From: Persicimonas caeni
Lineage (GTDB): Bacteria; Myxococcota_A; Bradymonadia; Bradymonadales; Bradymonadaceae
Assembly: GCF_006517175.1 (NCBI RefSeq)
Contig: NZ_CP041186.1
Location: forward strand, 4,739,074 to 4,803,073
Reading direction: 5' to 3'
DNA: 64,000 bases
Part shown: piece by piece, positions 15,062 through 50,644 of the stretch
How positions within the stretch are numbered: position 1 is the first letter of the stretch
Layout: every line of letters begins with the position of its first letter
Notes under the pieces: model-generated
Databases searched by the model: none
The model's input: the letters and a program-made list of their open reading frames with translations, nothing else
Told to the model about the DNA's origin: nothing
Program-made: the position numbers and the translations under genes

Positions 15062-15231
15062 CGGTGTTCCCTGAGGCTCAGTTTTCTGAAAGTGCGTCGA
15101 CTTTTCGACAAAGCTCGGGGGCGACATGCGTCCTTAATGCCCGCTACGCCCGCTCGAAAAGTTGGCATGACTTGTGAAAATCGTACATAGTGTCTGCATT
15201 CGTGTGTGTAACCCGAGCGAGCTGGAAAGTC

Positions 15232-16296
15232 ATGCGACGAGCGATCTGGATCCCCATCTGTTTGGTGCTGCTATTCGTGAGCGGCTGTATCGATCTGAAC
15301 CAAGACTACGAGCGTGAGTGCTTGGCCGAGCGGCGCTGCGGGCCGAGTGAGGCGAGCGTGTGCGGCGTCGACGGGGTGGAGTACGAGTGTGCGGCGATGG
15401 CGCAGTGCTACGGCGTCGAGGTCGACGACTCCGGTCAGGCCTGCGACGGCCAGGCTCAGTGCGAGCCGGTGACCTGTGAGATCGCCTGTCCGAACGGCTT
15501 CAAGACTGACGAGAACGGGTGCGAGATCTGTGCGTGTAAAGAGGAAGAGCCGCCGCAGTGCGAGCCGGTGAGCTGCACGCTGTTCTGCGAGAACGGCTTC
15601 AAGACCGACCAGAACGGGTGTGAGATCTGTGAGTGCGAAGAAGAGGAGCCGCCGCAGTGCGAGCCGTTCCAGTGCGCTCTCGATTGCTTCAACGGGTACA
15701 AGACCGACGAGAACGGCTGTCAGATTTGCGAGTGTCGCGAGTCGGAGGGTGGCTCGTGTGGAGCAGATCCGTGCATCTCGTATCACTGCGGCAGTCGCGT
15801 GCCGAGTTGCATCAAAGAGAGCGAGCTGGCCACGATGGGCGCCTGTCCTTCGCCTCCGCCGGGCCGCTTTCAAGAGCCCGACCAACAGTGCATCTGTGAC
15901 CCCGACGGCGACTTTTGTCGGGCGCGCGACTGCTCGTTGGAAGAGGGGTGTCCGGGAGACGACGGCCTGTGCGTGACTTGGCCCGACTCGAACGAGTACG
16001 GCTACTGCGTGGAGGCGACCTGCGACGATATCGTGCTTCGGTTCGAAGAGATCGCTCAGAATTACAACACCTGCAGCTCGGACGACGACTGCTCGCTCTA
16101 CTCGCCGATTTACGATTGCTGTGGTGGTTTTGCGGTCAACGCCGAGGGCATCGGCGAGATGGGTATCGCGGACGCCTTCGCCGCGCGCACGCAGTGTGGG
16201 CGCGACTGGGCCGAGACCTGCACGATGGTCGACTGCGCCGAGCCGCCTACGAACGCCGTAGCGTGCGTGCAGGGGCGGTGTCAGGCGACGCGGTAA
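15232..16296 (+). CDS. Cys-rich lipoprotein with Kazal-like and antistasin-like repeats
   Basis: A 354-residue surface lipoprotein. The signal MRRAIWIPICLVLLFVSGC ends in lipobox VSGC. After it comes a Kazal-like segment (CGPSEASVCGVDGVEYEC... C) and three antistasin-like repeats with the pattern C-EP-V-C-x3-C-x-NG-K-T-D-x-NG-C-x-IC-x-C at about residues 85-110, 115-140 and 145-172. A second Cys-rich half (residues 180-354) is of no recognised family. Kazal and antistasin domains in animals inhibit serine proteases, so protection against proteases, its own or those of prey or competitors, is a reasonable inference. The start is ATG 15232 with GGAAAG; the longer reading from 15190 would bury the signal peptide. 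Confidence 0.8.
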   Translation: MRRAIWIPICLVLLFVSGCIDLNQDYERECLAERRCGPSEASVCGVDGVEYECAAMAQCYGVEVDDSGQACDGQAQCEPVTCEIACPNGFKTDENGCEICACKEEEPPQCEPVSCTLFCENGFKTDQNGCEICECEEEEPPQCEPFQCALDCFNGYKTDENGCQICECRESEGGSCGADPCISYHCGSRVPSCIKESELATMGACPSPPPGRFQEPDQQCICDPDGDFCRARDCSLEEGCPGDDGLCVTWPDSNEYGYCVEATCDDIVLRFEEIAQNYNTCSSDDDCSLYSPIYDCCGGFAVNAEGIGEMGIADAFAARTQCGRDWAETCTMVDCAEPPTNAVACVQGRCQATR

Positions 16297-19598: not shown

Positions 19599-22500
19599 CT
19601 ACTTGGTCTCGACGTCTTCGGTCTCGACCTTTGCCTCCTCCTCGCCCTCCAGAATGGTGAACGTCACGCGGCGGTTCTTCTCGCGGCCTTCGGCCGTGCC
19701 GTTGTCCGCGATCGGCTTCGTCTCACCGTAGCCCTTGGCCTCGAGGCGCGAGGCGTCGATGCCTTTTTCGACCAGGTAGCCCACCACAGCGTCGGCGCGC
19801 TTCTGCGACAACTCGAGGTTATGCGCGTCGCTGCCCTTGCTGTCGGTGTGACCCTCGACGCGCACCTTGGCGATCTCGGGATGGGTGCGAAGCACCGTCA
19901 CGATCTCGTCGAGGATGCGGTGGCTTCGCTCACGGATGGTGGCGCGGTTGGTGTCGAAGTAGATCTTCTCCATGATGTTGATCTTCTCTTCGGTCACCTT
20001 GACCTTCGACTCGCCCTCGTCGGGGCAGCCGTCCTCATCCTCGAAGCCGTTGACCACCTCGGCCTGGTTGGGGCACTGGTCGTCGGCGTCGGCGATGCGG
20101 TCGCCGTCGTTGTCGTTGTCGGGGCAGCCGTCGGCGTCTTCGAATTCGTCGACGTCTTCGGCTTCATTGGGACACTGGTCGTCGGCGTCGGCGAGCTTGT
20201 CGCCGTCGTTGTCGACGTCGGGGCAGCCGTCTTCGTCTTCGAATTCGTCGACGTCCTCGGCCTTGTTCGGGCACTGGTCGTCGGCGTTGGCGATGCCGTC
20301 TTCGTCACGGTCGGCGCCGGCGTCGGGGCAGCCATCCTTGTCGTCGATGTCGTTGTAGTCCTCGGCCTTGTTCGGGCACTGGTCATCGACGTCATCGATG
20401 CGGTCGCCGTCGTTGTCGCGGTCGGGGCAGCCGTCGGCATCTTGGAATCCGTCGATGTCTTCGGCGATATCCGAGCACTGATCGTCGGCGTCCTCGATGC
20501 CGTCGCTGTCGGCGTCACGATTGACGGGACGCCACCCGATGGCGGTGAACAACCGGTAGGCCGGCGAGCCGACCCCGGCGCTCAGGCCGGTGCCCGCGCC
20601 GAGCGAGACCGCCAGGTCCTGGGGCAGGGCGTAGGAGACGCCGGCGAGCAACTCGGCGGAGTTGGCGTTCTCGTTGTCGGTGCTGTCGCCGGCGTCGAAG
20701 GGGTTGCGCGCGTCGGCCAGGTTGATGTTGCCGAAGGCGCTGGCGCGCGCCTTCAGCCCGTCGAGGAAGGCCGGGCCTTCGATGCCCACGCCCCAGCGCA
20801 CGATGTCGCCGGCGGCGTAGCTGCCCGTGTAGGCCTCTTCGCGCGCCTGCCAGCCCACGTTGGCGCTGACGAGCATCCCCATGGCGTGCTTCCAGTCGAC
20901 CACGAGGCGCGGCTCGACGCGAAACTCGCCGTCGGAGTTGAAGCTGTCGGTGTCGCCCACGGGCAGGTAGACCGACGCCATCAGCGCCGCGCCGAACCCG
21001 TAGAAGCGTTTCGGAAAACGCAGCTTGGGCACCACGCGCATATCGGCGAGCGCGAAGCTGTCGACCCCGCTCAGCCCGTATTGGGCGACGTTGTCGTCGC
21101 TCTGGTAGGCGACCATCGGCACGACCAGGCCGATTTCACCCAGGTCGTACAGGCCGATGGCGCCGCTCAATTCGGCTTTGAGCTGCGAGTCGAGCAGCTT
21201 GGCGCGGGTCGTGCCCGACTCGGTGTCGAGCCGGATGGGGTCGTCGACGAAGTGCAGGAAGAATCCTGCCGACGGGCGCAGGTGACCGAGCACGTCGCTG
21301 GTGGCGACGTTGTAGATGCTGTGGGCCTGCACGGGCAGCGGCTCGAAGTGCTCGACCTGGTAGTCCGTGTCGAGGTTCGCGCCCATCTGCGCCTGGGCCG
21401 GGGCCACGTCGACCACCATCAGGGCCGCGCCGGCGCCCAACAGGACGCCGAGCTTCGAGCCGAGCTTACGGCCGCGGCGCCACAGCGCGCTCAGGCCGAA
21501 GAGCATCAGCAGGGCCAGTCCCATCGGCGCCGGGCCCGAAGGCGAGGCGCTCGAGCAGGCGAGGCTTCCGCCGCGCAGGGTGGTCTGCTCGTCGTCGATG
21601 TCGGACAGCGGGTCGGAGCGGCGGTCGATCTCCTCGCCGTCGGGCACGCCGCCGCCGTCGGTGTCGGCCACGGTCGGGTCGGTCTCGTGCTCGTTGACCT
21701 CGTCGGTGTCGATGAGGCCGTCACCGTCGGTGTCCGGGTTCTGCGGATCGGTGCCAAGCTCGTCCTCGTCGGCGTCGGTCAGCCCGTCGTTGTCGCTATC
21801 CTCGTCGATGTAGTCGGGCGTGCCGTCACCGTCGGTGTCGTTGCTGCCCTCGTTCTCGTCGTCGATGCCGTCGTTGTCGCTGTCGGAGTCGACGTAGTCG
21901 CTCTGTCCGTCGCCGTCGGTATCGACGGTGCCTTCGTCGGCGTCGATGACACCGTCGTTGTCACTGTCGACGTCTTGGAAGTCGCGGGTGCCGTCACCGT
22001 CGGTGTCGACGGTGCCCTCGGTCGAGTCGTCGATGCCGTCGTTGTCCGAGTCGTCGTCGAGGTAATCGGCGGTGCCGTCGCCGTCGGTGTCGACGTCGCC
22101 TTCGTCGGCGTCGCTGAGTCCGTCGCCGTCCGAGTCGTCGTCGAGGTAGTCGGGCGTGCCGTCACCATCGGTGTCGACGTCGCCTTCGGTCTCATCCGAG
22201 ATGCCGTCGCCGTCGCTGTCGTCGTCGAGGTAGTCGGGCGTGCCGTCACCGTCGGTGTCGACGTCGCCTTCGGTCTCGTCCGAGATACCGTCATTGTCGG
22301 AATCGCTATCGACGTAATCGGCCTCGCCGTCGCCATCAGAGTCGACGTCACCCTCGTCGGCGTCGGTCAAGCCGTCGTCGTCCGAGTCGGTGTCGAGGTA
22401 GTCGGGCGTGCCGTCACCGTCGGTGTCGACGTCGCCTTCGGTCTCGTCGGAGATGCCGTCGTCGTCGGAGTCGGCGTCGATATAGTCGGCGGTGCCGTCA

Positions 22501-25500
22501 CCATCGGAGTCGACGTCGCCTTCGACCGCATCCGAGATGCCGTCGTTGTCCGAGTCGTCGTCCAGATAGTCGGGCGTGCCGTCGCCGTCGGTGTCGACGT
22601 TGCCCTCGACCGAGTCGAGGATGCCGTCATCGTCCGAGTCGGGATCCCGGTAGTCGGGGATGCCGTCGCCGTCGGTATCGTCGCTCTCCTCGTCGGCGTC
22701 GGGCGTGCCGTCGCCGTCGGAGTCGGTGTCCAGATAGTCGGGCGTGCCGTCACCGTCGGTGTCGACGGTTCCCTCGCTGGAGTCGGGCAGCGTGTCGCCG
22801 TCGGAGTCGGTGTCGAGGTAGTCGGGCGTGCCGTCACCGTCGGTGTCGACGTCGCCTTCGACCGCATCCGAGATGCCGTCGTCGTCGCTGTCGGTATCCA
22901 GGTAGTCGGGCGTGCCGTCCGAGTCGCTGTCGACGTCACCTTCGGTCGCGTCGCTCAAACCATCGTCGTCCGAATCGGTGTCGACGTAGTCGGCCGCGCC
23001 GTCGCCATCGCTGTCGACGTCGCCTTCGTCGGCGTCGCTGAGTCCGTCGTCGTCGCTGTCGGTGTCGAGGTAATCGGGCGTGCCGTCACCATCGGTGTCG
23101 ACGTCGCCTTCGACCGCATCCGAGATGCCGTCGCCGTCGGAGTCGGTGTCGAGGTAGTCGGGCGTGCCGTCACCATCGGAGTCGACCGAACCTTCGACCG
23201 CATCCGAGATGCCGTCGCCGTCCGAGTCGGCGTCGAGGTAGTCGGGCGTACCGTCGCCATCGGAGTCGACCGAACCTTCGACCGCATCCGAGATGCCGTC
23301 GTCGTCGCTGTCGGCGTCGAGGTAGTCGGGCGTGCCGTCACCGTCCGAGTCGACGTTGCCTTCCGTCGCATCGTCGATGCCGTCGCCGTCCGAGTCGGCG
23401 TCCAGGTAGTCGGGCGTGCCGTCACCATCGGAGTCGACCGAACCTTCGACCGCGTCGTCGATGCCGTCATTGTCGCTGTCGGTGTCCAAGTAGTCCGGTG
23501 TGCCGTCCGAGTCGGAGTCGCTCGTGCCTTCATCGGCGTCGGCCAGGCCGTCATTGTCGCTGTCGGCGTCGAGGTAGTCGGGGGTGCCGTCACCATCCGA
23601 GTCGACCGAACCTTCGACCGCGTCGTCGATGCCGTCGTCGTCCGAGTCGGTGTCGAGGTAGTCGGGCGTGCCGTCCGAGTCGCTGTCGACGTTGCCTTCG
23701 ACCGCGTCGTCGATGCCGTCGTCGTCGCTGTCGGTATCTAAGTAGTCGGGAGTCGAATCGCCATCGGAGTCGACGTTGCCTTCGGTCGCATCGTCGATGC
23801 CGTCGTCGTCCGAGTCCGTGTCGAGATAATCTGGCGTCGAGTCGCCGTCGGAGTCGACGTTGCCTTCGACCGAATCGTCGATGCCGTCGTCGTCCGAGTC
23901 GGCGTCGAGGTAGTCGGGCGTCGAGTCTCCATCGGAGTCGACGTTGCCTTCGACCGAGTCGTCGATGCCGTCGCCGTCGCTGTCGGTGTCGAGGTAGTCG
24001 GGCGTCGAGTCGCCATCGGAGTCGACGTTGCCTTCGACCGAATCGTCAATGCCGTCGTTGTCCGAGTCGGCGTCGAGGTAGTCGGGGGTGGAGTCGCCGT
24101 CGGAGTCGACGTTGCCTTCGACCGAATCGTCGATGCCGTCGTTGTCCGAGTCGGCGTCGAGGTAGTCGGGGGTGGAGTCGCCGTCGCTGTCGACGTTGCC
24201 TTCGACCGCATCGTCGATGCCGTCGCCGTCCGAATCCGAATCCAGGTAGTCGGGCGTCGAATCACCGTCCGAATCGCCGTTGCCTTCGATCGCATCCGAG
24301 ATGCCGTCGTTGTCCGAATCGGCGTCGAGGTAATCGGGGGTCGAATCGCCGTCGCTGTCGACAGTGCCCTCGATGAAGTCGAGCAGGCCGTCGTCGTCGC
24401 TGTCGTCGTCCAGGTAGTCGGGCGTGCCGTCGCCGTCGGTGTCGACGTCGCCTTCGACCGCATCGTCGATGCCGTCGTCGTCGCTGTCGGTGTCGACGTA
24501 ATCGGCGCTGCCGTCGCCGTCGCTGTCGAAGCTCCCCTCGACCGCGTCGCTCAGGCCGTCATTGTCCGAGTCGCTGTCCAGGTAGTCGGGCGTCGTGTCC
24601 AGGTCGGTGTCGCCCGCGCCCTCGACCGAGTCGTCGATGCCGTCGTTGTCCGAATCGGTATCGAGGTAGTCGGGGGTCGAGTCGCCATCGGAGTCGACGG
24701 TGCCCTCGACCGAATCGGGCAGCGTGTCGCCGTCCGAGTCGGTGTCCAGATAGTTCGGTGCATTGTCGCCGTCGGTGTCGACGTCGCCTTCGATGGCGTC
24801 CGAGATCCCGTCGTCGTCCGAGTCGGTGTCCAGGTAGTCGGGCGTGCCGTCGCCGTCGAAGTCGACGTCGCCTTCGTCCACATCACCCAGGCCGTCGCCG
24901 TCGCTGTCGAAATCTCGCCAGTTGCCCGTCCCGTCGTTGTCCGGGTCGGCGGTGCCTTCGTCGGCGTCGAGGATGCCGTCGTTGTCCGAGTCGGTGTCCA
25001 GGTAGTCGGGGATGGAGTCGAGGTCGGTGTCGCCCGAGCCTTCGATGGCGTCCGAGATGCCGTCGTTATCCGAGTCGGCGTCGACGTAGTCGGCCGCGCC
25101 GTCGCCGTCGCTGTCGGTCGTGCCCTCGTTTTCGTCGGGCAGCGTGTCGTCATCGCTGTCCAGGTCGAGGTAGTCGGGCGTCGAGTCACCGTCGGTGTCG
25201 ACATTGCCCTCGGTCGCGTCCGGGATGCCGTCGCCGTCCGAGTCGGTGTCCAGGTAGTCGTAGGTCAGGTCGCCGTCGGAGTCGACGCGGCCTTCGGTCG
25301 CATCCGGGATGCCGTCGCCGTCGGCGTCGGTGTCTCGCCAGTTGCCCACCGAGTCGTTGTCCGAATCGTTCGAGCCTTCGTCGGCGTCGAGGATGCCGTC
25401 GCCGTCGGTGTCCGTGTCGCGCGCGTCGACGATGCCGTCCGAGTCGGTGTCGACCCAGCTGCCGCCGTCGGCCTCGACGAAGTCACTGATGCCGTCGCCG

Positions 25501-26894
25501 TCGGTGTCCGGGTTGTTCGGGTCGCTGTCGGTGGTGCATCGCTCGGCCAGGTCGCTCAGCCCGTCGCCGTCGGAGTCGACGCTGCTGTCGCCGGTCTCCA
25601 CCGAGATGGACGCGCTCGAGACCGACTCCACAAACGCGTAGGTGTCCAGCAGGGCGTTGTCGCCGCGGCCGGCACCCGAGAAGTCGCCCCAGGCGCGCGC
25701 GTTTCCGTTGGTCGTCTCCGTATGCGGCACCGCCGCGTCGGCGTAGGGGCCCGAGATGACCCCGTTGGGGCCCGCCGAGTAGGCGCCGATCTCGCCGTTG
25801 GGAAGCGCCACGGCGCTGGCCTGCAGCAACTCGTCGTTCCAGAACATCGTCAGCGGCGAGCGATTCAGCAAGCTGTCGAGCACGTACATGCGCATGCCCT
25901 CGTAGCTCGTCTCGATGTCGCGGCCCACGTAGTGGAACTCGCCGACGCCGATGCGGATGATGCAGTCGTAGGTGCCGTAGGGCACCGGGTTGCTCTCGTT
26001 GTCGGTGCCGTCCCAGGTCAGGGTGTTGGTCCCCGGCTGGACGGTGCCGGCCACGGTCACGTCGACGTTCGACGAGGGGTCGAAGGTCCCGTCGGCGTTG
26101 ATGTCGCAGATCATCTGCACGCCGCCCTCGACGTTGGTGTCGAAGGTGAACGTCCCCTCGGTCACCCCCGGATCGATGGCGTTGCACTGCGCCTGGCTGC
26201 CCGCGGTCGTGCCCGAAAACGACACGTTCGACACCGTCGGGGTCAGGGTGGCGTAGTCGGACACCGCCGGCGGGTTCAGGTACAGCGGGTACTCGGGAGT
26301 CACGCTGTTATTGCTCGACGGCACGCTGATGCCCGACTGGTCGCCGTCGACGCCGCTCGAGTTGGCCGTGATGTCGTAGACATAGCCGGCCAGGCCGTCG
26401 AGTTTGAGCTCGACCACCGCGGTCTTGCCGGGCTCGCCGCCCGGAACGATCGCATAGAAGCTCGCGTTGGTCGCCGCCGACGCCGAAAAGCTACCCGCGT
26501 CGAAGTTCCACCGGCTGGTGAACAGACGGCCCAGGTAGGTCGTCGTGCCGTCGGTCACGCCGATATCCCAGCTGCCGGTCTGCTGTTGAGACAGCGTCAA
26601 CGAGTAGACGCCGGCCGGGTGCCCGCTCAACGCGAGGCTTCCCCCGCTCGAAATCGTGCCCACGGTCGTGCCGTTGGGGTCGGTCACCGTCAACGTTCCC
26701 GAGCCCGACCAGGTCACCGATTCCGTCGTCGGATCGACGATGTCGAGCTGCAGCAACGTCGACCGCAGATTTTGCGAGCTGCCCAGCTCGGCCGAGCCTT
26801 CGGCGAACGCCGGCGAGGCGGGCAGCGTCAGGCACACGCCCGCCGCTAGCATTGCCCCGTAGGCCAGGGGGTGTTTCCAATTTCGGTACTGCAT
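19599..26894 (-). CDS. Giant repeat adhesin fused to an OmpA-family barrel protein
   Basis: A 2431-residue exported protein. In order: a signal peptide (about 1-31, cleavage near AFA-EG); a beta-rich region (32-430) with Ig-like segments; about 45 acidic 28-residue calcium-type repeats of the form DSDGDGTPDYLDTDSDDDGI (435-1770); a Cys, a hydrophobic span and an Arg cluster (LACSSASP, PMGLALLMLFGLSALWRRGR, 1780-1805) resembling a MYXO-CTERM/GlyGly-CTERM sorting tail; a second signal-like segment ending APAQAQ (1810-1833); a predicted outer-membrane barrel (1835-2120); five thrombospondin-3 loops (DADDQCPN..EDVDGCPD type, 2125-2298); and an OmpA domain (IYFDTNRATIR, VEGHTDSKGSDAHNLELSQKRA). 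The second half resembles the TraB architecture of myxobacteria. The start is ATG 26894; the upstream frame to 27254 is not supported. The internal sorting tail plus signal points to a fusion of two genes. Confidence 0.85.
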   Translation of the reverse strand: MQYRNWKHPLAYGAMLAAGVCLTLPASPAFAEGSAELGSSQNLRSTLLQLDIVDPTTESVTWSGSGTLTVTDPNGTTVGTISSGGSLALSGHPAGVYSLTLSQQQTGSWDIGVTDGTTTYLGRLFTSRWNFDAGSFSASAATNASFYAIVPGGEPGKTAVVELKLDGLAGYVYDITANSSGVDGDQSGISVPSSNNSVTPEYPLYLNPPAVSDYATLTPTVSNVSFSGTTAGSQAQCNAIDPGVTEGTFTFDTNVEGGVQMICDINADGTFDPSSNVDVTVAGTVQPGTNTLTWDGTDNESNPVPYGTYDCIIRIGVGEFHYVGRDIETSYEGMRMYVLDSLLNRSPLTMFWNDELLQASAVALPNGEIGAYSAGPNGVISGPYADAAVPHTETTNGNARAWGDFSGAGRGDNALLDTYAFVESVSSASISVETGDSSVDSDGDGLSDLAERCTTDSDPNNPDTDGDGISDFVEADGGSWVDTDSDGIVDARDTDTDGDGILDADEGSNDSDNDSVGNWRDTDADGDGIPDATEGRVDSDGDLTYDYLDTDSDGDGIPDATEGNVDTDGDSTPDYLDLDSDDDTLPDENEGTTDSDGDGAADYVDADSDNDGISDAIEGSGDTDLDSIPDYLDTDSDNDGILDADEGTADPDNDGTGNWRDFDSDGDGLGDVDEGDVDFDGDGTPDYLDTDSDDDGISDAIEGDVDTDGDNAPNYLDTDSDGDTLPDSVEGTVDSDGDSTPDYLDTDSDNDGIDDSVEGAGDTDLDTTPDYLDSDSDNDGLSDAVEGSFDSDGDGSADYVDTDSDDDGIDDAVEGDVDTDGDGTPDYLDDDSDDDGLLDFIEGTVDSDGDSTPDYLDADSDNDGISDAIEGNGDSDGDSTPDYLDSDSDGDGIDDAVEGNVDSDGDSTPDYLDADSDNDGIDDSVEGNVDSDGDSTPDYLDADSDNDGIDDSVEGNVDSDGDSTPDYLDTDSDGDGIDDSVEGNVDSDGDSTPDYLDADSDDDGIDDSVEGNVDSDGDSTPDYLDTDSDDDGIDDATEGNVDSDGDSTPDYLDTDSDDDGIDDAVEGNVDSDSDGTPDYLDTDSDDDGIDDAVEGSVDSDGDGTPDYLDADSDNDGLADADEGTSDSDSDGTPDYLDTDSDNDGIDDAVEGSVDSDGDGTPDYLDADSDGDGIDDATEGNVDSDGDGTPDYLDADSDDDGISDAVEGSVDSDGDGTPDYLDADSDGDGISDAVEGSVDSDGDGTPDYLDTDSDGDGISDAVEGDVDTDGDGTPDYLDTDSDDDGLSDADEGDVDSDGDGAADYVDTDSDDDGLSDATEGDVDSDSDGTPDYLDTDSDDDGISDAVEGDVDTDGDGTPDYLDTDSDGDTLPDSSEGTVDTDGDGTPDYLDTDSDGDGTPDADEESDDTDGDGIPDYRDPDSDDDGILDSVEGNVDTDGDGTPDYLDDDSDNDGISDAVEGDVDSDGDGTADYIDADSDDDGISDETEGDVDTDGDGTPDYLDTDSDDDGLTDADEGDVDSDGDGEADYVDSDSDNDGISDETEGDVDTDGDGTPDYLDDDSDGDGISDETEGDVDTDGDGTPDYLDDDSDGDGLSDADEGDVDTDGDGTADYLDDDSDNDGIDDSTEGTVDTDGDGTRDFQDVDSDNDGVIDADEGTVDTDGDGQSDYVDSDSDNDGIDDENEGSNDTDGDGTPDYIDEDSDNDGLTDADEDELGTDPQNPDTDGDGLIDTDEVNEHETDPTVADTDGGGVPDGEEIDRRSDPLSDIDDEQTTLRGGSLACSSASPSGPAPMGLALLMLFGLSALWRRGRKLGSKLGVLLGAGAALMVVDVAPAQAQMGANLDTDYQVEHFEPLPVQAHSIYNVATSDVLGHLRPSAGFFLHFVDDPIRLDTESGTTRAKLLDSQLKAELSGAIGLYDLGEIGLVVPMVAYQSDDNVAQYGLSGVDSFALADMRVVPKLRFPKRFYGFGAALMASVYLPVGDTDSFNSDGEFRVEPRLVVDWKHAMGMLVSANVGWQAREEAYTGSYAAGDIVRWGVGIEGPAFLDGLKARASAFGNINLADARNPFDAGDSTDNENANSAELLAGVSYALPQDLAVSLGAGTGLSAGVGSPAYRLFTAIGWRPVNRDADSDGIEDADDQCSDIAEDIDGFQDADGCPDRDNDGDRIDDVDDQCPNKAEDYNDIDDKDGCPDAGADRDEDGIANADDQCPNKAEDVDEFEDEDGCPDVDNDGDKLADADDQCPNEAEDVDEFEDADGCPDNDNDGDRIADADDQCPNQAEVVNGFEDEDGCPDEGESKVKVTEEKINIMEKIYFDTNRATIRERSHRILDEIVTVLRTHPEIAKVRVEGHTDSKGSDAHNLELSQKRADAVVGYLVEKGIDASRLEAKGYGETKPIADNGTAEGREKNRRVTFTILEGEEEAKVETEDVETK
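21780..25560 (-). repeat. About 45 tandem 84-nt coding repeats
   Basis: Within the giant gene an 84-nt unit (28 codons) of Asp/Gly-rich calcium-loop sequence is repeated about 45 times with small changes. Some neighbours are almost identical (for example around 23880-24180, four units). Because of the GAC/GTC-rich codons the opposite strand is open over more than 4 kb, which produces a false long frame (19464-23741) on the plus strand. Confidence 0.9.
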
Positions 26895-27188: not shown

Positions 27189-27294
27189 ATCGGCAAGACG
27201 ACCGCCACGCGCAAACGCGGCAGTTCGTCCGCCCTTCAATATTAACTCCTTCAATAGCCGGCGCTGCTATCCTGCAGGGCGTTCCAACTCACCC
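27189..27294 (+). repeat. Long repeat A (direct partner of C, inverted partner of B)
   Basis: A 106-nt sequence starting ATCGGCAAGACGACCGCCAC and ending GTTCCAACTCACCC. It recurs almost unchanged at 27903-28008 (C) and, inverted and more diverged, at 27795-27874 (B). A and B flank the phased palindrome array as terminal inverted repeats. Confidence 0.85.
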
Positions 27295-27449
27295 GAGCCG
27301 ACTCGTCCCTCGGAGCGAGAGGTTTTGTTTGGTGCCCTCGTAAGAGCTGGAGGTGAGATGCCGAGTGACGCCCGCATGGCCCACAAAAAATAGAACGCAG
27401 CGCCGCGAGCGAGGTTCGGCGGACTCGACAAACGGCCCTGAGGTGCGTT

Positions 27450-27768
27450 CGAAACGTCCGATGAACGGATCACCGTTCGATTCGACCCTCGAAATTTCGT
27501 CCACTGGACGTCTCGGCCGAGCCTCGCCCCTCGGTTTTTGGTCCATCGGACGTCACGCGCGTCTTCGAACCCTCGGCATTTTCGTCCATCGAACGTCGGG
27601 CGTCTGCTTTCGCACGGAATTTTTGGTCCCGTGGACGTCGAAAGTCGGATTTAGGGCCCACGATTTTGGTCCATCGGACGTTTCGAACGCACCTCAGGCC
27701 GAGGTTTTGGTCCGTTGGACGTTTTTTTGAGGGTGGAGGCTCCCTTTTTGGTCCATCGGACGCCACGA
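27450..27768. repeat. Phased array of eight palindromes (41-43 bp spacing)
   Basis: Eight copies of an 11-bp palindrome GTCCATCGGAC (variants GTCCACTGGAC, GTCCCGTGGAC, GTCCGTTGGAC, GTCCATCGAAC) have centres at 27461, 27504, 27546, 27589, 27631, 27674, 27715 and 27756. The spacings are 43, 42, 43, 42, 43, 41 and 41 bp, that is four helical turns. The conserved unit is about 20 nt (TTTTGGTCCATCGGACGTC), and the 20-24 nt between units are mostly unrelated. The first copy is inverted and, with its flank (27439-27463), is the exact reverse complement of 27672-27697. Reading frame changes from unit to unit, so the repeat is not a protein repeat. Confidence 0.85.
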
Positions 27769-27790
27769 CGAGGGTCGAGGCTCGTCGTGG
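27763..27790. repeat. 10-bp perfect hairpin at the end of the array
   Basis: CCACGACGAG and CTCGTCGTGG are separated by 8 nt, directly after the last palindrome of the array and before inverted repeat B. There is no T-run, so it is not a simple terminator. Confidence 0.75.
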
Positions 27791-27794
27791 CGGA

Positions 27795-27874
27795 CGCCCT
27801 GCAGGGTCTCACGGCTGCTATTGAGGTGAGATTATCATTGAAGGGCGGACGATTTGCGGCGTTTGCGCGTGGCG
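27795..27874 (-). repeat. Long repeat B (inverted copy of A/C)
   Basis: Read on the minus strand it gives CGCCACGCGCAAACGCCGCA, then GTCCGCCCTTCAAT and CCCTGCAGGGCG, the same order as A and C. It closes the array on its right side and forms a large inverted pair with adjacent copy C. Confidence 0.75.
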
Positions 27875-27902
27875 ACGCTCTCGGGCCATAGCCACGTGGC
27901 TA

Positions 27903-28008
27903 ATCGGCAAGACGACCGCCACGCGCAAACGCGGCAGCCCGTCCGCCCTTCAATCCTAACTCCTTCAATAGCCGGCGCTTCTATCCTGCAGGGCGTTCCA
28001 ACTCACCC
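27903..28008 (+). repeat. Long repeat C, containing the stop codon of the decarboxylase gene
   Basis: This 106-nt copy is nearly identical to A. Its last bases (CCAACTCACCC, to 28008) include the TGA stop (28003-28005, minus strand) of the 4-oxalocrotonate decarboxylase gene, so the repeat either arose from or has overwritten the 3' end of that gene. Confidence 0.85.
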
Positions 28009-28785
28009 AATAGACAACTCGACGCTGCCCAGCTCATCGACGTCGACCTGGACGTGGTCGCCCGAGTCGACGTGGATGGCGGCGGTGGCGCCGCCGGCCA
28101 TGACGATCTGGCCCGCTTTCAACGACTCGCCGCGCTCGGCGAGCATGTTGGCGAGCTCGGCCAGCGAGTTGGCCGGGTGCTCGTAGATCGCCGCGCTGCT
28201 GCCCGTTTTGACGACCTCGCCGTTGTGGCTCATCACCATGCCCAGGTTGCCCAGCTCGTCGAGGGCGTCGGGCGCCACGCGCTCGGTGCCCAGCACGATC
28301 TTCGACGACGAGGCGTTGTCGGCGACCACGTCGATGATGGTGAACTTGAAGTCGCGAAAGCGGCTGTCGATGACCTCGAGCGCCGCGCACACGCTCTCGA
28401 CGGCGTCGAGCGCCTCGGCCGGGGTGGTCGGGCCCTCGAGATCTTTGCCCAGGATGAAGGCGACCTCGGGCTCGACGCGCGGGTGGATGAACAGGTCGCG
28501 GTCGAGCTCGGCGCCGCTCCCCTCGACCATCGTGTCGGTCAGGTGGCCATAGATGGGGTTATGCACCCCCACCTGCTCCATCTTCGCCTTGCTCGTCAGG
28601 CCCATCTTCATGCCCACGAGCTGCTCGCCGCGCTCCAGACGCCGCGCGATGGAGGCGCGCTGGATGTCGTAGGCCTCCTCGAGGGTCATCTCGGGCGCCT
28701 CGGCGGTGAGCATCGTGATGGGGGTGACGGCGACAGCGGCGCTGTCGACGATGTCGGCGAAGTAGTTGATTTGGTCTTTTTTCAT
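28003..28785 (-). CDS. 4-oxalocrotonate decarboxylase-like (DmpH/XylI family)
   Basis: A 260-residue member of the hydratase/decarboxylase (FAH-like) family. In the lower meta-cleavage pathway DmpH decarboxylates 2-oxo-3-hexenedioate with Mg2+, working together with the hydratase. Visible family blocks are LVGMKMGLTSKAKMEQVGV, HPRVEPEVAFILGKDL with the metal-binding Glu pair, EVIDSRF and IIDVVADNASS, and GQIVMAGG. The start is ATG 28785 with AAGGAAG. It ends the cluster, after aldolase, dehydrogenase and hydratase. Which of the two paralogues here (this and 31394-32167) is decarboxylase and which hydratase is judged from resemblance only and could be reversed. Confidence 0.82.
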   Translation of the reverse strand: MKKDQINYFADIVDSAAVAVTPITMLTAEAPEMTLEEAYDIQRASIARRLERGEQLVGMKMGLTSKAKMEQVGVHNPIYGHLTDTMVEGSGAELDRDLFIHPRVEPEVAFILGKDLEGPTTPAEALDAVESVCAALEVIDSRFRDFKFTIIDVVADNASSSKIVLGTERVAPDALDELGNLGMVMSHNGEVVKTGSSAAIYEHPANSLAELANMLAERGESLKAGQIVMAGGATAAIHVDSGDHVQVDVDELGSVELSIG

Positions 28786-34511: not shown

Positions 34512-36856
34512 CCCACTCGATTCGGATCACCTATTCGCCTTGTTTTGAAAGGGGGGATCCGATGCGGGGGTATTTGCCTCCGGTAAAAGACGTGCGGCAG
34601 TTAAGGGGGCTCTGATGGCGATTGTTATGTTGGCCTGCTGGGGCAGGCTGTTCCACTGTAGCCGCTCGTCCCAGGTTTTCCGGCGTCGCTGGCGACGTGC
34701 GGCGGTCATCGCCAGATAGTCTACGTGGCGAGTTGAGGAATCCGGTGGAGATTTTGTCACCTCGACCTTGAGGCTTCGAGCAGCTTTTCGAAAGGCGTTG
34801 CGAAAGGTGCTTGCGACCAGTACCGGCTGACGCATGTGGAGGTCGCCGGGTTCGGGCAAGTCGTCAGGAATCGACAGTCTAAGCCCTAGCAGGGCCGTTG
34901 AGGGCGACGCCTTATCAGCGGGATCACTGCCATGCGTCGGCGCGTCAGCGGCCTTATCTTGGCCTTGGATCGCAGCTGGCTCGTCGTGCGCACCCAGCGT
35001 GGCTGGCGGCGGCATGTGAATCTCGATCTCTTTTCTGTAGGTCGGCGACGTCGACGAGGTGCATTCGCGGCGGAAGGGGCAGCCCTGGCAGGCTTGTGGG
35101 GAGCCGATGCGGAATCTGACGATCACACGGCCGCCGCGCTGGCGCATTCCGGACAGGCCCAGATAGGCGCCTTTCGCACAGCCGATCTGGCGGGTTTGAG
35201 CGTCATAGCTGAATCCATCGAGCCCACCGATGCGCTGCTCGACCTTTCGGGTGACACCCTGCCACCAGGCGTGCGATGCCTCGAAGCCGACGGCGAGCGA
35301 GGCCGGCTCCGGACGGCCTGCCGCTGGGGCTGCGTGGGGTGCGGGGGCACCGGTCGGCGCGAGCGGCAGCGTGTCGGCCGATTCGAGCTTGCGCGGCGCA
35401 GCCTCGACGTCGATAGGCTCGAGCTCGCCGAAGAGCTCGGCGCCCCTAATGGCCCTGAAATTGTGTAGCCAAACCCCCAGCGCCATCATGACCTGCTGGC
35501 CGGGCGCGCAATCCGAGTACATCTTCTCCAGATCCATGTGCCGATCGAGTCGGGCAAAGCCGTTTTCCTGGCGGCCGGCCCGGGCGTAGTAGGTGGTGAC
35601 GACTTCTGCGGCCGGATAGGCCGTCGGGTCGAGATCGCAGGCGTAGACCTCGTACTGAAGCCCGTCGACAAAGCATCCGGCGCCGCGCTTCTTGCCGTCG
35701 GTCGGCTCAAAGCAGCTGACCACCAGCCTGGCCCGAGCGTCACCAAGCCAGTAGTCGCCCATTTCGGTCGCCCAGCGCTGGGGGCCGCTTCGGGAATCGT
35801 CGACCTTCTGCCATGTCTGCTGGGCCAGCTGAGCGCGCACCGCAGGATCTTTGAGCGGCTCGTAGTAACGAAGCCGGGTCAAAAAGTGCACCGGCGAGCG
35901 AAGCGCCGCGCGCAGCTGGGCAAACCCTCCCTGGTGGCCGTCGATGGCCAGAAAACACCGGCCGGGCTCGAGCCCGCGGGCGTTGGCCCATCGCTCTATC
36001 AGTGCCAGGCCCTGCGCAAAGTCATCGCTGAGCTGGCCGTTTCCGGCCGCATAATTCATCGCCAGATAAAGCCCGCTTCCCAGATGCTCCAAGATCGACG
36101 TCTCCATCTGGACGTCGGCGCGCTTTCGGCCCGAATAGCCCGGTTTGGCGCCCAAGCTGTCGACCCGACGGCGGGCGGGCGGGTACTCCTCGCCCTCGCA
36201 CAGCGCCCGGCGTCGAAAAGGCTGCACGCGCCCATCGATGGCGAAGCCGTGCCAGGACTGCCCGGTGCAATCGCGCCACAGCACAGCCTCGTAGGCCGAA
36301 AAAGGCGCCGCCGGGGTCCATGCTCCGAGCAACTGCTCTTTGAATCGACACGCCATCTCCTCGGGAATGTCGCCCAAAACGCGCGACATCGATGCCTGGC
36401 TGCAAAGCCTGTCTCGCCCCCCTGCCGCTGCCAGGGCCTGCGACCACCCTCGGCCATTGACTTCGTCGAGCATCCCACGAAGCCCCGAGTACGTGGGCTG
36501 GGCGCTAAAAAAGGCCAGCCCCGCCAGCACCGCGTCGATAAACTGGTAGCCGCTTCGGTCGAGCCGAAACTGCTGCTCGATCTCGTCGAAAATGCCCTCA
36601 CCGCGCAGATGCTCGCAGGCTACGATATACTCGTTGAAGTGAGCGGGCACTGCTCGCTGCGGCTCGGAACGCTCGTGATTTTGGAGGCTGACATTGAGGC
36701 GAGTGTCTGGCATGATCGTCTCCGGATGTAATGATTTCCAGGCTTTGTGCCCGGTTTGTTTTTGGTCGAACAAAATCATTACATCCTTTTTGTTTTCTTG
36801 ACGATCCTCCCGATCGGTCGCCCCCCACGCCTCCTCGCTGATTCGGATCGAGTGGG
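34512..36856 (-). mobile_element. 2345-bp insertion sequence with 5-bp target duplication CTTCG
   Basis: The ends are read directly. The left end is CCCACTCGATTCGGATCACC (34512) and the right end, reversed, is CCCACTCGATCCGAATCAGC (36856): 17 of 20 match. CTTCG precedes the left end (34507-34511) and follows the right end (36857-36861). The uninterrupted R3 copy at 38097-38331 has a single CTTCG at the equivalent site (AGCGCTTCGCGCAGGG). The element carries one transposase, whose stop codon lies inside the left terminal repeat. I do not assign an IS family; 5-bp duplications occur for example in IS1634-like elements. Confidence 0.9.
34527..36713 (-). CDS. DDE-type transposase of the insertion sequence
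   Basis: A 728-residue transposase. Start ATG 36713 (MPDTRLNVSLQ) has GGAG 7 nt upstream; the frame remains open to 37367 but that part overlaps the toxin gene on the other strand and is not used. Possible catalytic acids are in VLWRDCTGQSW, CFLAIDGHQGG and YYARAGRQENGF, the last resembling the Y-R-E region of IS4-type enzymes. A Cys cluster CQGCPFRREC follows near residue 560, as in some IS1182-like enzymes. A C-terminal extension rich in Arg/Gln has no recognised domain. The gene is intact. Its termination codon is only 15 bp from the end of the element. Confidence 0.8.
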   Translation of the reverse strand: MPDTRLNVSLQNHERSEPQRAVPAHFNEYIVACEHLRGEGIFDEIEQQFRLDRSGYQFIDAVLAGLAFFSAQPTYSGLRGMLDEVNGRGWSQALAAAGGRDRLCSQASMSRVLGDIPEEMACRFKEQLLGAWTPAAPFSAYEAVLWRDCTGQSWHGFAIDGRVQPFRRRALCEGEEYPPARRRVDSLGAKPGYSGRKRADVQMETSILEHLGSGLYLAMNYAAGNGQLSDDFAQGLALIERWANARGLEPGRCFLAIDGHQGGFAQLRAALRSPVHFLTRLRYYEPLKDPAVRAQLAQQTWQKVDDSRSGPQRWATEMGDYWLGDARARLVVSCFEPTDGKKRGAGCFVDGLQYEVYACDLDPTAYPAAEVVTTYYARAGRQENGFARLDRHMDLEKMYSDCAPGQQVMMALGVWLHNFRAIRGAELFGELEPIDVEAAPRKLESADTLPLAPTGAPAPHAAPAAGRPEPASLAVGFEASHAWWQGVTRKVEQRIGGLDGFSYDAQTRQIGCAKGAYLGLSGMRQRGGRVIVRFRIGSPQACQGCPFRRECTSSTSPTYRKEIEIHMPPPATLGAHDEPAAIQGQDKAADAPTHGSDPADKASPSTALLGLRLSIPDDLPEPGDLHMRQPVLVASTFRNAFRKAARSLKVEVTKSPPDSSTRHVDYLAMTAARRQRRRKTWDERLQWNSLPQQANITIAIRAPLTAARLLPEANTPASDPPFQNKANR

Positions 36857-36861
36857 CTTCG

Positions 36862-36916
36862 CGCAGGGGGGCAGGCGCGAAGGCGCCGGGGGGTTGAGGT
36901 GACGGGGCGGCAAGGC
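36862..36916 (+). repeat. R3 element, copy 1, right part
   Basis: GCGCAGGGGGGCAGGCGCGA onward matches 38275-38331. It ends with GGCAAGGC (36909-36916), the inverse of the left end GCCTTGCC. The HINT-toxin frame begins inside this terminus. Confidence 0.85.
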
Positions 36917-37667
36917 CAACGCCCTCGCCGCATACACCCCCACGCGCACCTGCAGCTTCACAGCCAGCACCGTGGTATGGATGTGCGACGGCTCGAACAA
37001 GCCGATCGACGAGGTCGAAGAGGGCGAGTGGGTGCTGGCGCGCGACGAGAAGACAGGCGCGGTCGAGTGCCGCCAGGTCGTCGCCCCGTACGCCAACCCC
37101 GAGCGCGCCATCATCGAGCTCGAACTCGTCGACGAGCAGGGTCGCGTCGAGGTCATTGAGACGACCGACAACCATCCGTTCTTCGTCGAGGGCCAAGGCT
37201 TTACGCGCGTCGACGAGCTTTTGCTCGGCGATCGCATCCCCAGCGGCGACGGTTTGGTGCTCGAAGTCGAGCGCATCTATCTGACCGGGCGCATCGAGAC
37301 GGTCTGCAACTTTGGCGTCGACGACTTCCGCACGTATTTTGTGGGGCAGATCGGGGCGTGGGTTCATAACTGCTACGATGAGTTGCGTGACCTACTTGGC
37401 GATATGCCCAAAGAGGAATTCGAGCGTCTATCCAAGAATTGGAACAAAGGAAATCACGACACGCTGGCTGAAAGCCTCCGTTATCACGCAAACAAGCATG
37501 GAGGTGGGAATCTCAAAAAATACCTTCGACAAGCGAACGCGTTTAACAAAAGAGGCGCGAAGAGAACTAAGTTGCCGAATGGGGCCGTGAGGTACAACAA
37601 GGGCAATGGTGAGTTTCTCATCAAGCGCAATGGAGGCATCGTCTCGTACGGGAGGAATAATCAGTGA
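36903..37667 (+). pseudogene. 5'-truncated polymorphic toxin: HINT domain plus C-terminal toxin domain
   Basis: The open frame starts right after a TGA (36900-36902) in R3 and reads GKANALAAYTPTRTCSFTAS. The Cys opens a HINT self-cleaving domain: CSFTASTVVWMCDG, VEEGEWVLARDEKTG, TTDNHPFFVEG (block B Thr/His) and FVGQIGAWVHNC (terminal His-Asn-Cys). After it comes a toxin tip of about 98 residues (YDELRDLLGDMPKEEFERL to GGIVSYGRNNQ), with LRYHANKHGGGNLKKYLRQA and FLIKRNGGIVSYG recalling BECR-fold RNase tips of contact-dependent toxins (low confidence). No start codon has a ribosome site (GTG 36972 is the best), and the delivery N-terminus is missing. It is therefore an orphan C-terminal module, joined by a GTGA overlap to the next gene. 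Confidence 0.75.
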
Positions 37668-50197: not shown

Positions 50198-50644
50198 GTG
50201 GTCATACAGTATCGCCGCGACCCGGTTCGAGCAAAGCCCCCGCAGAGTCGCGCCGAGCACGCTCGACCAACTCGGGAAGACGTCGAGCGTCCGTTCGAGC
50301 ACGATAACCTGCTCCACGGAACCCTCGAGGGTACGATCGAGGACGCTGGAGTAAAATTGGAAGGTGTCGAGGGTGCGATCGAGGAGGCTAGAGTAAAATT
50401 CGAGACCCTCGAGGGTCGGATCGAGTACTCTGGAGTAAAAATCGGAACCATCGAGGGTCGGCTGGAGGAGGATGACGTACGCGAAGAAGGTGTCGAGGGT
50501 TCATCGAAGTACTCTGGAGTAAAAATCGGAACCATCGAGGGTCGGCTGGAGGAGGATGACGTACGCGAAGAAGGTGTCGAGGGTTCATCGAAGTACTCTG
50601 GAGTAAAAATCGGAACCATCGAGGGTCGGCTGGAGGTAAAGTAA
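50198..50644 (+). CDS. Possible 14-residue-repeat protein
   Basis: A frame of 148 residues from GTG 50198 to a TAA. From residue 43 it consists of eight 14-residue units of the form LEGRIEYSGVKIGT, alternating with EDDVREEGVEGSSK in the last part. Charged/hydrophobic alternation suggests a coiled or solenoid structure. No family is recognised, the start has no clear ribosome site, and all three reverse frames are also open, so coding is uncertain. In favour, the period is exactly 42 nt in all eight units, with no frameshifting indels, and the repeat ends with a stop just after the last partial unit. Confidence 0.42.
   Translation: MVIQYRRDPVRAKPPQSRAEHARPTREDVERPFEHDNLLHGTLEGTIEDAGVKLEGVEGAIEEARVKFETLEGRIEYSGVKIGTIEGRLEEDDVREEGVEGSSKYSGVKIGTIEGRLEEDDVREEGVEGSSKYSGVKIGTIEGRLEVK
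50325..50630 (+). repeat. Eight exact-period 42-nt tandem repeats
   Basis: TCGAGGGT recurs at 50325, 50367, 50409, 50451, 50493, 50535, 50577 and 50619, always 42 nt apart. The last units alternate as an 84-nt pair (50451-50534 and 50535-50618) that is identical in both copies, evidence of a recent duplication. TGGAGTAAAA is the second conserved word. Confidence 0.92.

Follow-up and report, generated by a model that had tools for sequence, protein, structure and literature searches.

An intergenic array of 42-bp palindromic units in the Persicimonas caeni chromosome and the class of 41–44 bp repeats to which it belongs

Bacterial minisatellites are usually regarded as unrelated products of local slippage, and among VNTR and MIRU-type minisatellites we know of no genome-wide preference for one period comparable to that reported here. 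Short directly repeated motifs also make up plasmid iterons and the centromere arrays of partition systems, in which the usual spacing is 10–22 bp. Among papers listed by literature searches on periodic intergenic arrays, no title or abstract opening describes a preference of this kind across a genome. The nearest concept is BrickBuilt, a MITE minisatellite of Porphyromonas gingivalis which, in the portions of its description drawn on here, is built from 23-bp units that all share a sequence and has a defined leader and tail (PMC4596501). The array described below lies in a 64 kb stretch (G000:C1:4739074-4803073; hereafter the window) of the single 8,047,206-bp contig of a predatory bacterium, Persicimonas caeni.

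A preliminary description of the window reported eight evenly spaced palindromes, and their centres at 27461, 27504, 27546, 27589, 27631, 27674, 27715 and 27756 are all exact, with successive spacings of 43, 42, 43, 42, 43, 41 and 41 bp (mean 42.1 bp). Six of the eight sites match GTCC-N3-GGAC perfectly, and the two others, GTCCGATGAAC at 27461 and GTCCATCGAAC at 27589, each have one mismatched pair. The perfect GTCCnnnGGAC sites in the window number six, all inside the array, with 2.3 expected for the window as a whole; the motif TTTNGTCCNNNGNACG has exactly seven occurrences, likewise all within the array, against an expectation of 1.2 with one mismatch allowed. The repeat search recovers seven direct copies of 28 nt each. 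Units 2–8 share an almost invariant core, with eleven columns 100% identical across the seven units and variation in the 3-bp centre and the spacers. The core is degenerate and ~16–20 bp long, the spacers are 22–24 bp, and spacer identity among units 2–8 is ~31%, the level of chance; the contrast between invariant core and random spacers is sharp (p < 0.001). A palindrome with 4-bp arms is not unusual in a random 42-bp unit, and tandem duplication of one unit would thus by itself yield eight phased palindromes. The earlier picture requires two corrections, in that unit 1 is inverted and the spacers are homologous, index by index, to those of a second copy described below. Coordinates are collected in Table 1.

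Table 1. Coordinates of the array, its parts and related repeats in the window.
Feature	Coordinates	Strand	Basis
Whole array element, with a homologous second copy at G000:C1:380633-380970	27409..27778	+	blastn and near-gapless global alignment; 3' end less certain
Unit 1, inverted	27437..27466	-	97% reverse complement of 27669-27698; unit 1 also in second copy
Units 2–8, seven direct copies with core TTTnGTCCnnnGGACG	27488..27767	+	Repeat search, per-column conservation
Strong hairpin with 12-bp stem, directly after unit 8	27761..27792		Inverted-repeat search
Complete copy of dispersed palindromic MITE-like repeat	27832..27959 (extended repeat to 28008)		Repeat search; 34 blastn matches
Partial MITE-like copy, other side of the array	27189..27294		95% identical to 27903-28008
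Other window array, 42/84 bp period, unrelated sequence, AACCCTCGAGGGT-type palindromes	50317..50636		TRF and sequence

The array sits between two leftwards-transcribed genes, a giant TSP3/OmpA gene (19599-26894, minus strand) and an FAA_hydrolase-family gene (28003-28785, minus strand) belonging to a meta-cleavage-type operon. It is flanked by inverted pieces of the MITE-like repeat (27203-27245, within the partial copy, is inverted relative to 27832-27874), whereas the second copy of the array (L051) and most other arrays are not. All 34 blastn matches of the MITE-like repeat are in its own genome, with none in 57 relatives; besides 27832-27959 the palindromic repeat occupies about 15 further genome loci, several of them near 41–43 bp arrays. 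Elsewhere in the window, a Pretoxin HINT domain (PF07591) at 36972-37667 overlaps, on the opposite strand, the start of a long ORF (34527-37367) without a match in Pfam, and 15190-16296 encodes a bacterial protein with three antistasin-type repeats.

Blastn finds a single further site in the genome, on this chromosome at 380.63–380.97 kb, which lies immediately upstream of the gene for an Nt_Gln_amidase (PF09764) and matches in two pieces that are 74% identical over 27409-27541 and 77% identical over 27665-27739. Global alignment shows the two arrays to be co-linear and near-gapless, with a unit 1 in each, and the unit spacings of the second copy (43, 42, 43, 43, 42 and 41 bp) are kept to within 1 bp. 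Between the copies, spacer identity is 0.60 at the same index and 0.46 at different indices, which indicates that the units had already diverged when the array was copied in its entirety, and that the spacers were inherited rather than acquired. The proposal that the spacers are mutually unrelated is thus correct within the array and fails between the copies, where spacers of the same index are homologous. In the second copy the core is hardly more conserved than the spacers, identity to the window array being 0.64 and 0.55 respectively.

A search of related genomes for the same array, which the preliminary description had recommended, gave no copy in 57 relatives by blastn, and a two-copy profile (R1) run over 142 other genomes found none that scored convincingly beyond these two; of the best foreign hits, that in G031 is another kind of repeat and that in G053 lies in sequence lacking an array. 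The relatives covered by these searches include no second member of the genus. A scan of genome contigs with a very generic pattern matched nothing but isolated sites of the kind expected by chance. The 401-bp array, used as a query in its entirety rather than as single ~20-nt spacers, matched none of 72,556 plasmid and 50,697 phage records. Outside the arrays the core motif is not overrepresented in the genome, with 18 matches versus 29 for a reversed control, which argues against a dispersed regulon.

Arrays were surveyed in 1.26 Mb (16% of the genome) using TRF and a home-made codon-usage gene caller, on which the coding or non-coding call rests. The 54 non-coding arrays include periods of 41 (10 arrays), 42 (3), 43 (1), 44 (2) and 84–86 bp (4), and the periods of 144 coding arrays are mostly multiples of three. 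After arrays of one dispersed hairpin were dropped and neighbours merged there are 34 non-coding loci, of which 12 (17 with multiples) have a 40–44 bp period compared to 9 of the 144 coding arrays (Fisher 3e-5; 5e-8 under a log-uniform binomial null). Arrays with a period of 40–44 bp not divisible by three occur at 12.7 per Mb here and at 2.2 per Mb across 0.89 Mb from diverse genomes, and their share among all arrays with periods not divisible by three does not differ significantly from that in the diverse genomes (Fisher 0.19). The window array, being non-coding with a mean spacing of 42.1 bp, is a member of this class. Unit comparisons divide the class into about nine unrelated sequence families, one of which, other than that of the window array, has four co-linear copies, in its own genome only; cores are seen in a few further arrays as well, and differ from array to array. 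The second array in the window (50317-50636) belongs to the same class, though it may be coding, with one open frame whose translation is a 14-residue repeat. Of 18 array loci, three have the MITE-like repeat no more than 300 bp away, where 0.24 would be expected at random and none of 500 placements reached three. Beyond the 1.26 Mb sample, the sequence next to MITE copies contains two more array loci, with periods of 41 and 42–43 bp.

Other sampled genomes of the same taxonomic class contain arrays of 43, 85 and 86 bp (G031 and G051, from two other families), and 0.2 Mb sampled from each of the genomes G005 and G008 contained no such arrays. A class-level relative carries an alternating 42/43 bp array with core GGTCTTTCATGG (L261:838-1084, in G031:C415). 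At the phylum level, G228 has many apparently intergenic GTCCTGCGGACGCC-type arrays (L245, L247, L249, L252, L254 and L257) with units about 21–23 bp apart on both strands. A dispersed hairpin, GGGCAAGATGCCC, is present at 27 loci in the 1.26 Mb, including G000 209019, 210820, 2001228 and 6075885, and is often tandem, with periods of 28–74 bp.

Several traits were considered as common features of the class and rejected. Palindromy is significant in 3 of 24 units, no more than in other arrays, and RNA folding is at background (median z of -1.4 for arrays and -1.6 for random intergenic DNA). Helical phasing does not account for the shared period, given that with 10.5 bp/turn a 41.0 bp period slips by 1 bp at every unit and that the periods do not peak at 31 or 52 bp. 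BLAST gap counts first suggested a depletion of indels between paralogous arrays, as selection on spacing would produce, but re-alignment gives 0.076 gaps per mismatch versus 0.094–0.14 in other intergenic repeats of similar divergence.

The block had been described as non-coding, and the array has stops in all six frames and a unit spacing that is not a multiple of three; the second copy has stops in all six frames too. Any activity of the array would lie at the level of DNA rather than protein. An origin as a coding sequence for a 14-residue repeat that has since lost its frame is extremely unlikely: a 42-bp unit corresponds to 14 codons, and the array at 50317-50636 provides an example with a readable frame, but these stops, the 41/42/43 spacing and the 41 bp period of most class arrays, with which no in-frame repeat is possible, all argue against it. 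An intact 14-residue repeat gene, the finding that the preliminary description said would overturn its reading, was found neither at the array or its second copy nor in relatives by blastn, profile or motif search. It is also improbable that the locus encodes a structured non-coding RNA with a long hairpin closed by units 1 and 6, whose 30-bp arms are 97% complementary. The plus strand of 27400-27800 does fold better than its shuffles (z -5.45), as does the second copy (z -2.5), but the z of the window array is due largely to these two arms, the repeat without unit 1 giving -0.5, and both strands fold equally well (about -5.4). The background folding of the class argues in the same direction. 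In the second copy the stem has ~4 more mismatches and at most one fully compensatory change, and wobble or compensatory changes are few in this hand comparison of two homologous sequences. No Rfam family is found at gathering score, the weak matches of eukaryotic miRNA models, far below gathering, being to the long MITE palindrome.

A role as a protein-binding site is a stronger candidate, although one we still consider rather unlikely. A dimeric DNA-binding protein would read TTTnGTCCnnnGGACGT, and eight sites on one face of the DNA would support a cooperative or wrapped complex, which may act in cis (for example upstream of the giant TSP3/OmpA gene) or serve as an anchoring site. The invariance of the eleven core columns in seven units, next to a variable centre and variable spacers, favours such a protein, and each of the two copies lies upstream of the minus-strand gene at its left end. 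The same-face geometry that had been claimed is numerically true for the window array (phase resultant 0.87 at 10.5 bp/turn and 0.89 at 10.6), and the centres lie on one face in both copies (R 0.82–0.94 at 10.5–10.6 bp/turn). As a selected trait, however, helical phasing is weakened by the exact 41-bp period of most other class arrays, which is out of phase at 10.5 bp/turn, and these arrays also carry different cores. In addition, decay of the core in the second copy has nearly kept pace with that of the spacers, and the motif is not in excess elsewhere. The suggestion of an iteron or partition-site array is not supported: scanning 24 window proteins (~9.7–50 kb) with Pfam, of which 6 have no match, gave no rep or par (replication or partition) domain, and the plasmid and phage records gave no match.

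On balance we lean towards the array being a degenerate intergenic minisatellite of the genome-wide 41–44 bp class, copied whole to a second site where it has decayed; the option of a degenerate short-repeat array, which the preliminary description had listed, is the one best borne out. One 42-bp unit, by chance containing a short palindrome, would have been tandemly duplicated, the first unit would have become inverted, and the entire ~340-bp array would later have been copied to a second chromosomal site and begun to decay there. The class as a whole would have formed arrays of unrelated sequence at a common 41–44 bp period, some duplicated whole and some beside the MITE-like repeat, the period probably reflecting how arrays are amplified and homogenised. 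Uniform neutral decay does not give the sharp contrast between invariant core and random spacers. Either the core may be under selection in one copy only, possibly as a protein site, or, as the minisatellite reading would have it, within-array conversion, re-copying the most identical stretch, may preserve it.

That so many arrays of unrelated sequence have the same unit length suggests a shared process in which it is the length of the DNA, and not its sequence, that is gauged. We tentatively suggest, as a possibility that is less likely than the minisatellite origin itself, that a sequence-independent mechanism sets the intergenic repeat period in this bacterium, and perhaps in other members of its taxonomic class. 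Candidates would be a machinery that builds or copies arrays in fixed steps of ~41–43 bp, or a DNA-architectural protein that covers ~42 bp. The organism can be cultured, so the idea of a common process is testable there.

Like plasmid iterons and parC/parS centromere arrays, the array has a short motif in direct repeat, regularly spaced along the helix, but the spacing here is ~42 bp, the array is chromosomal with no initiator or partition gene found nearby, and the second copy has lost the motif. CRISPR arrays similarly combine a conserved short core with variable spacers, but the earlier judgment that this is not a CRISPR is supported: the core is ~16 bp rather than a near-identical repeat of at least 23 bp, the spacers are 55% identical to those that the second copy has inherited, and no cas gene was found among the scanned neighbours. 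The 401-bp query as a whole matches no phage or plasmid record. Bacterial VNTR and MIRU-type minisatellites are likewise intergenic, homogenised locally, and built of head-to-tail repeats of tens of bp; the seven 42-bp copies outside genes fall within their usual definition (at least three head-to-tail units of about 10–100 bp), and the difference lies in the genome-wide preference for one period. Like BrickBuilt, as far as the portions of its description used here go, the array is an intergenic tandem repeat associated with an inverted-repeat MITE-like sequence, and is species-specific with several dispersed copies (PMC4596501). Here, in contrast, inverted repeats of one element do not surround every copy, the period is 41–44 bp, the arrays are unrelated in sequence, and only some of them adjoin the MITE-like repeat.
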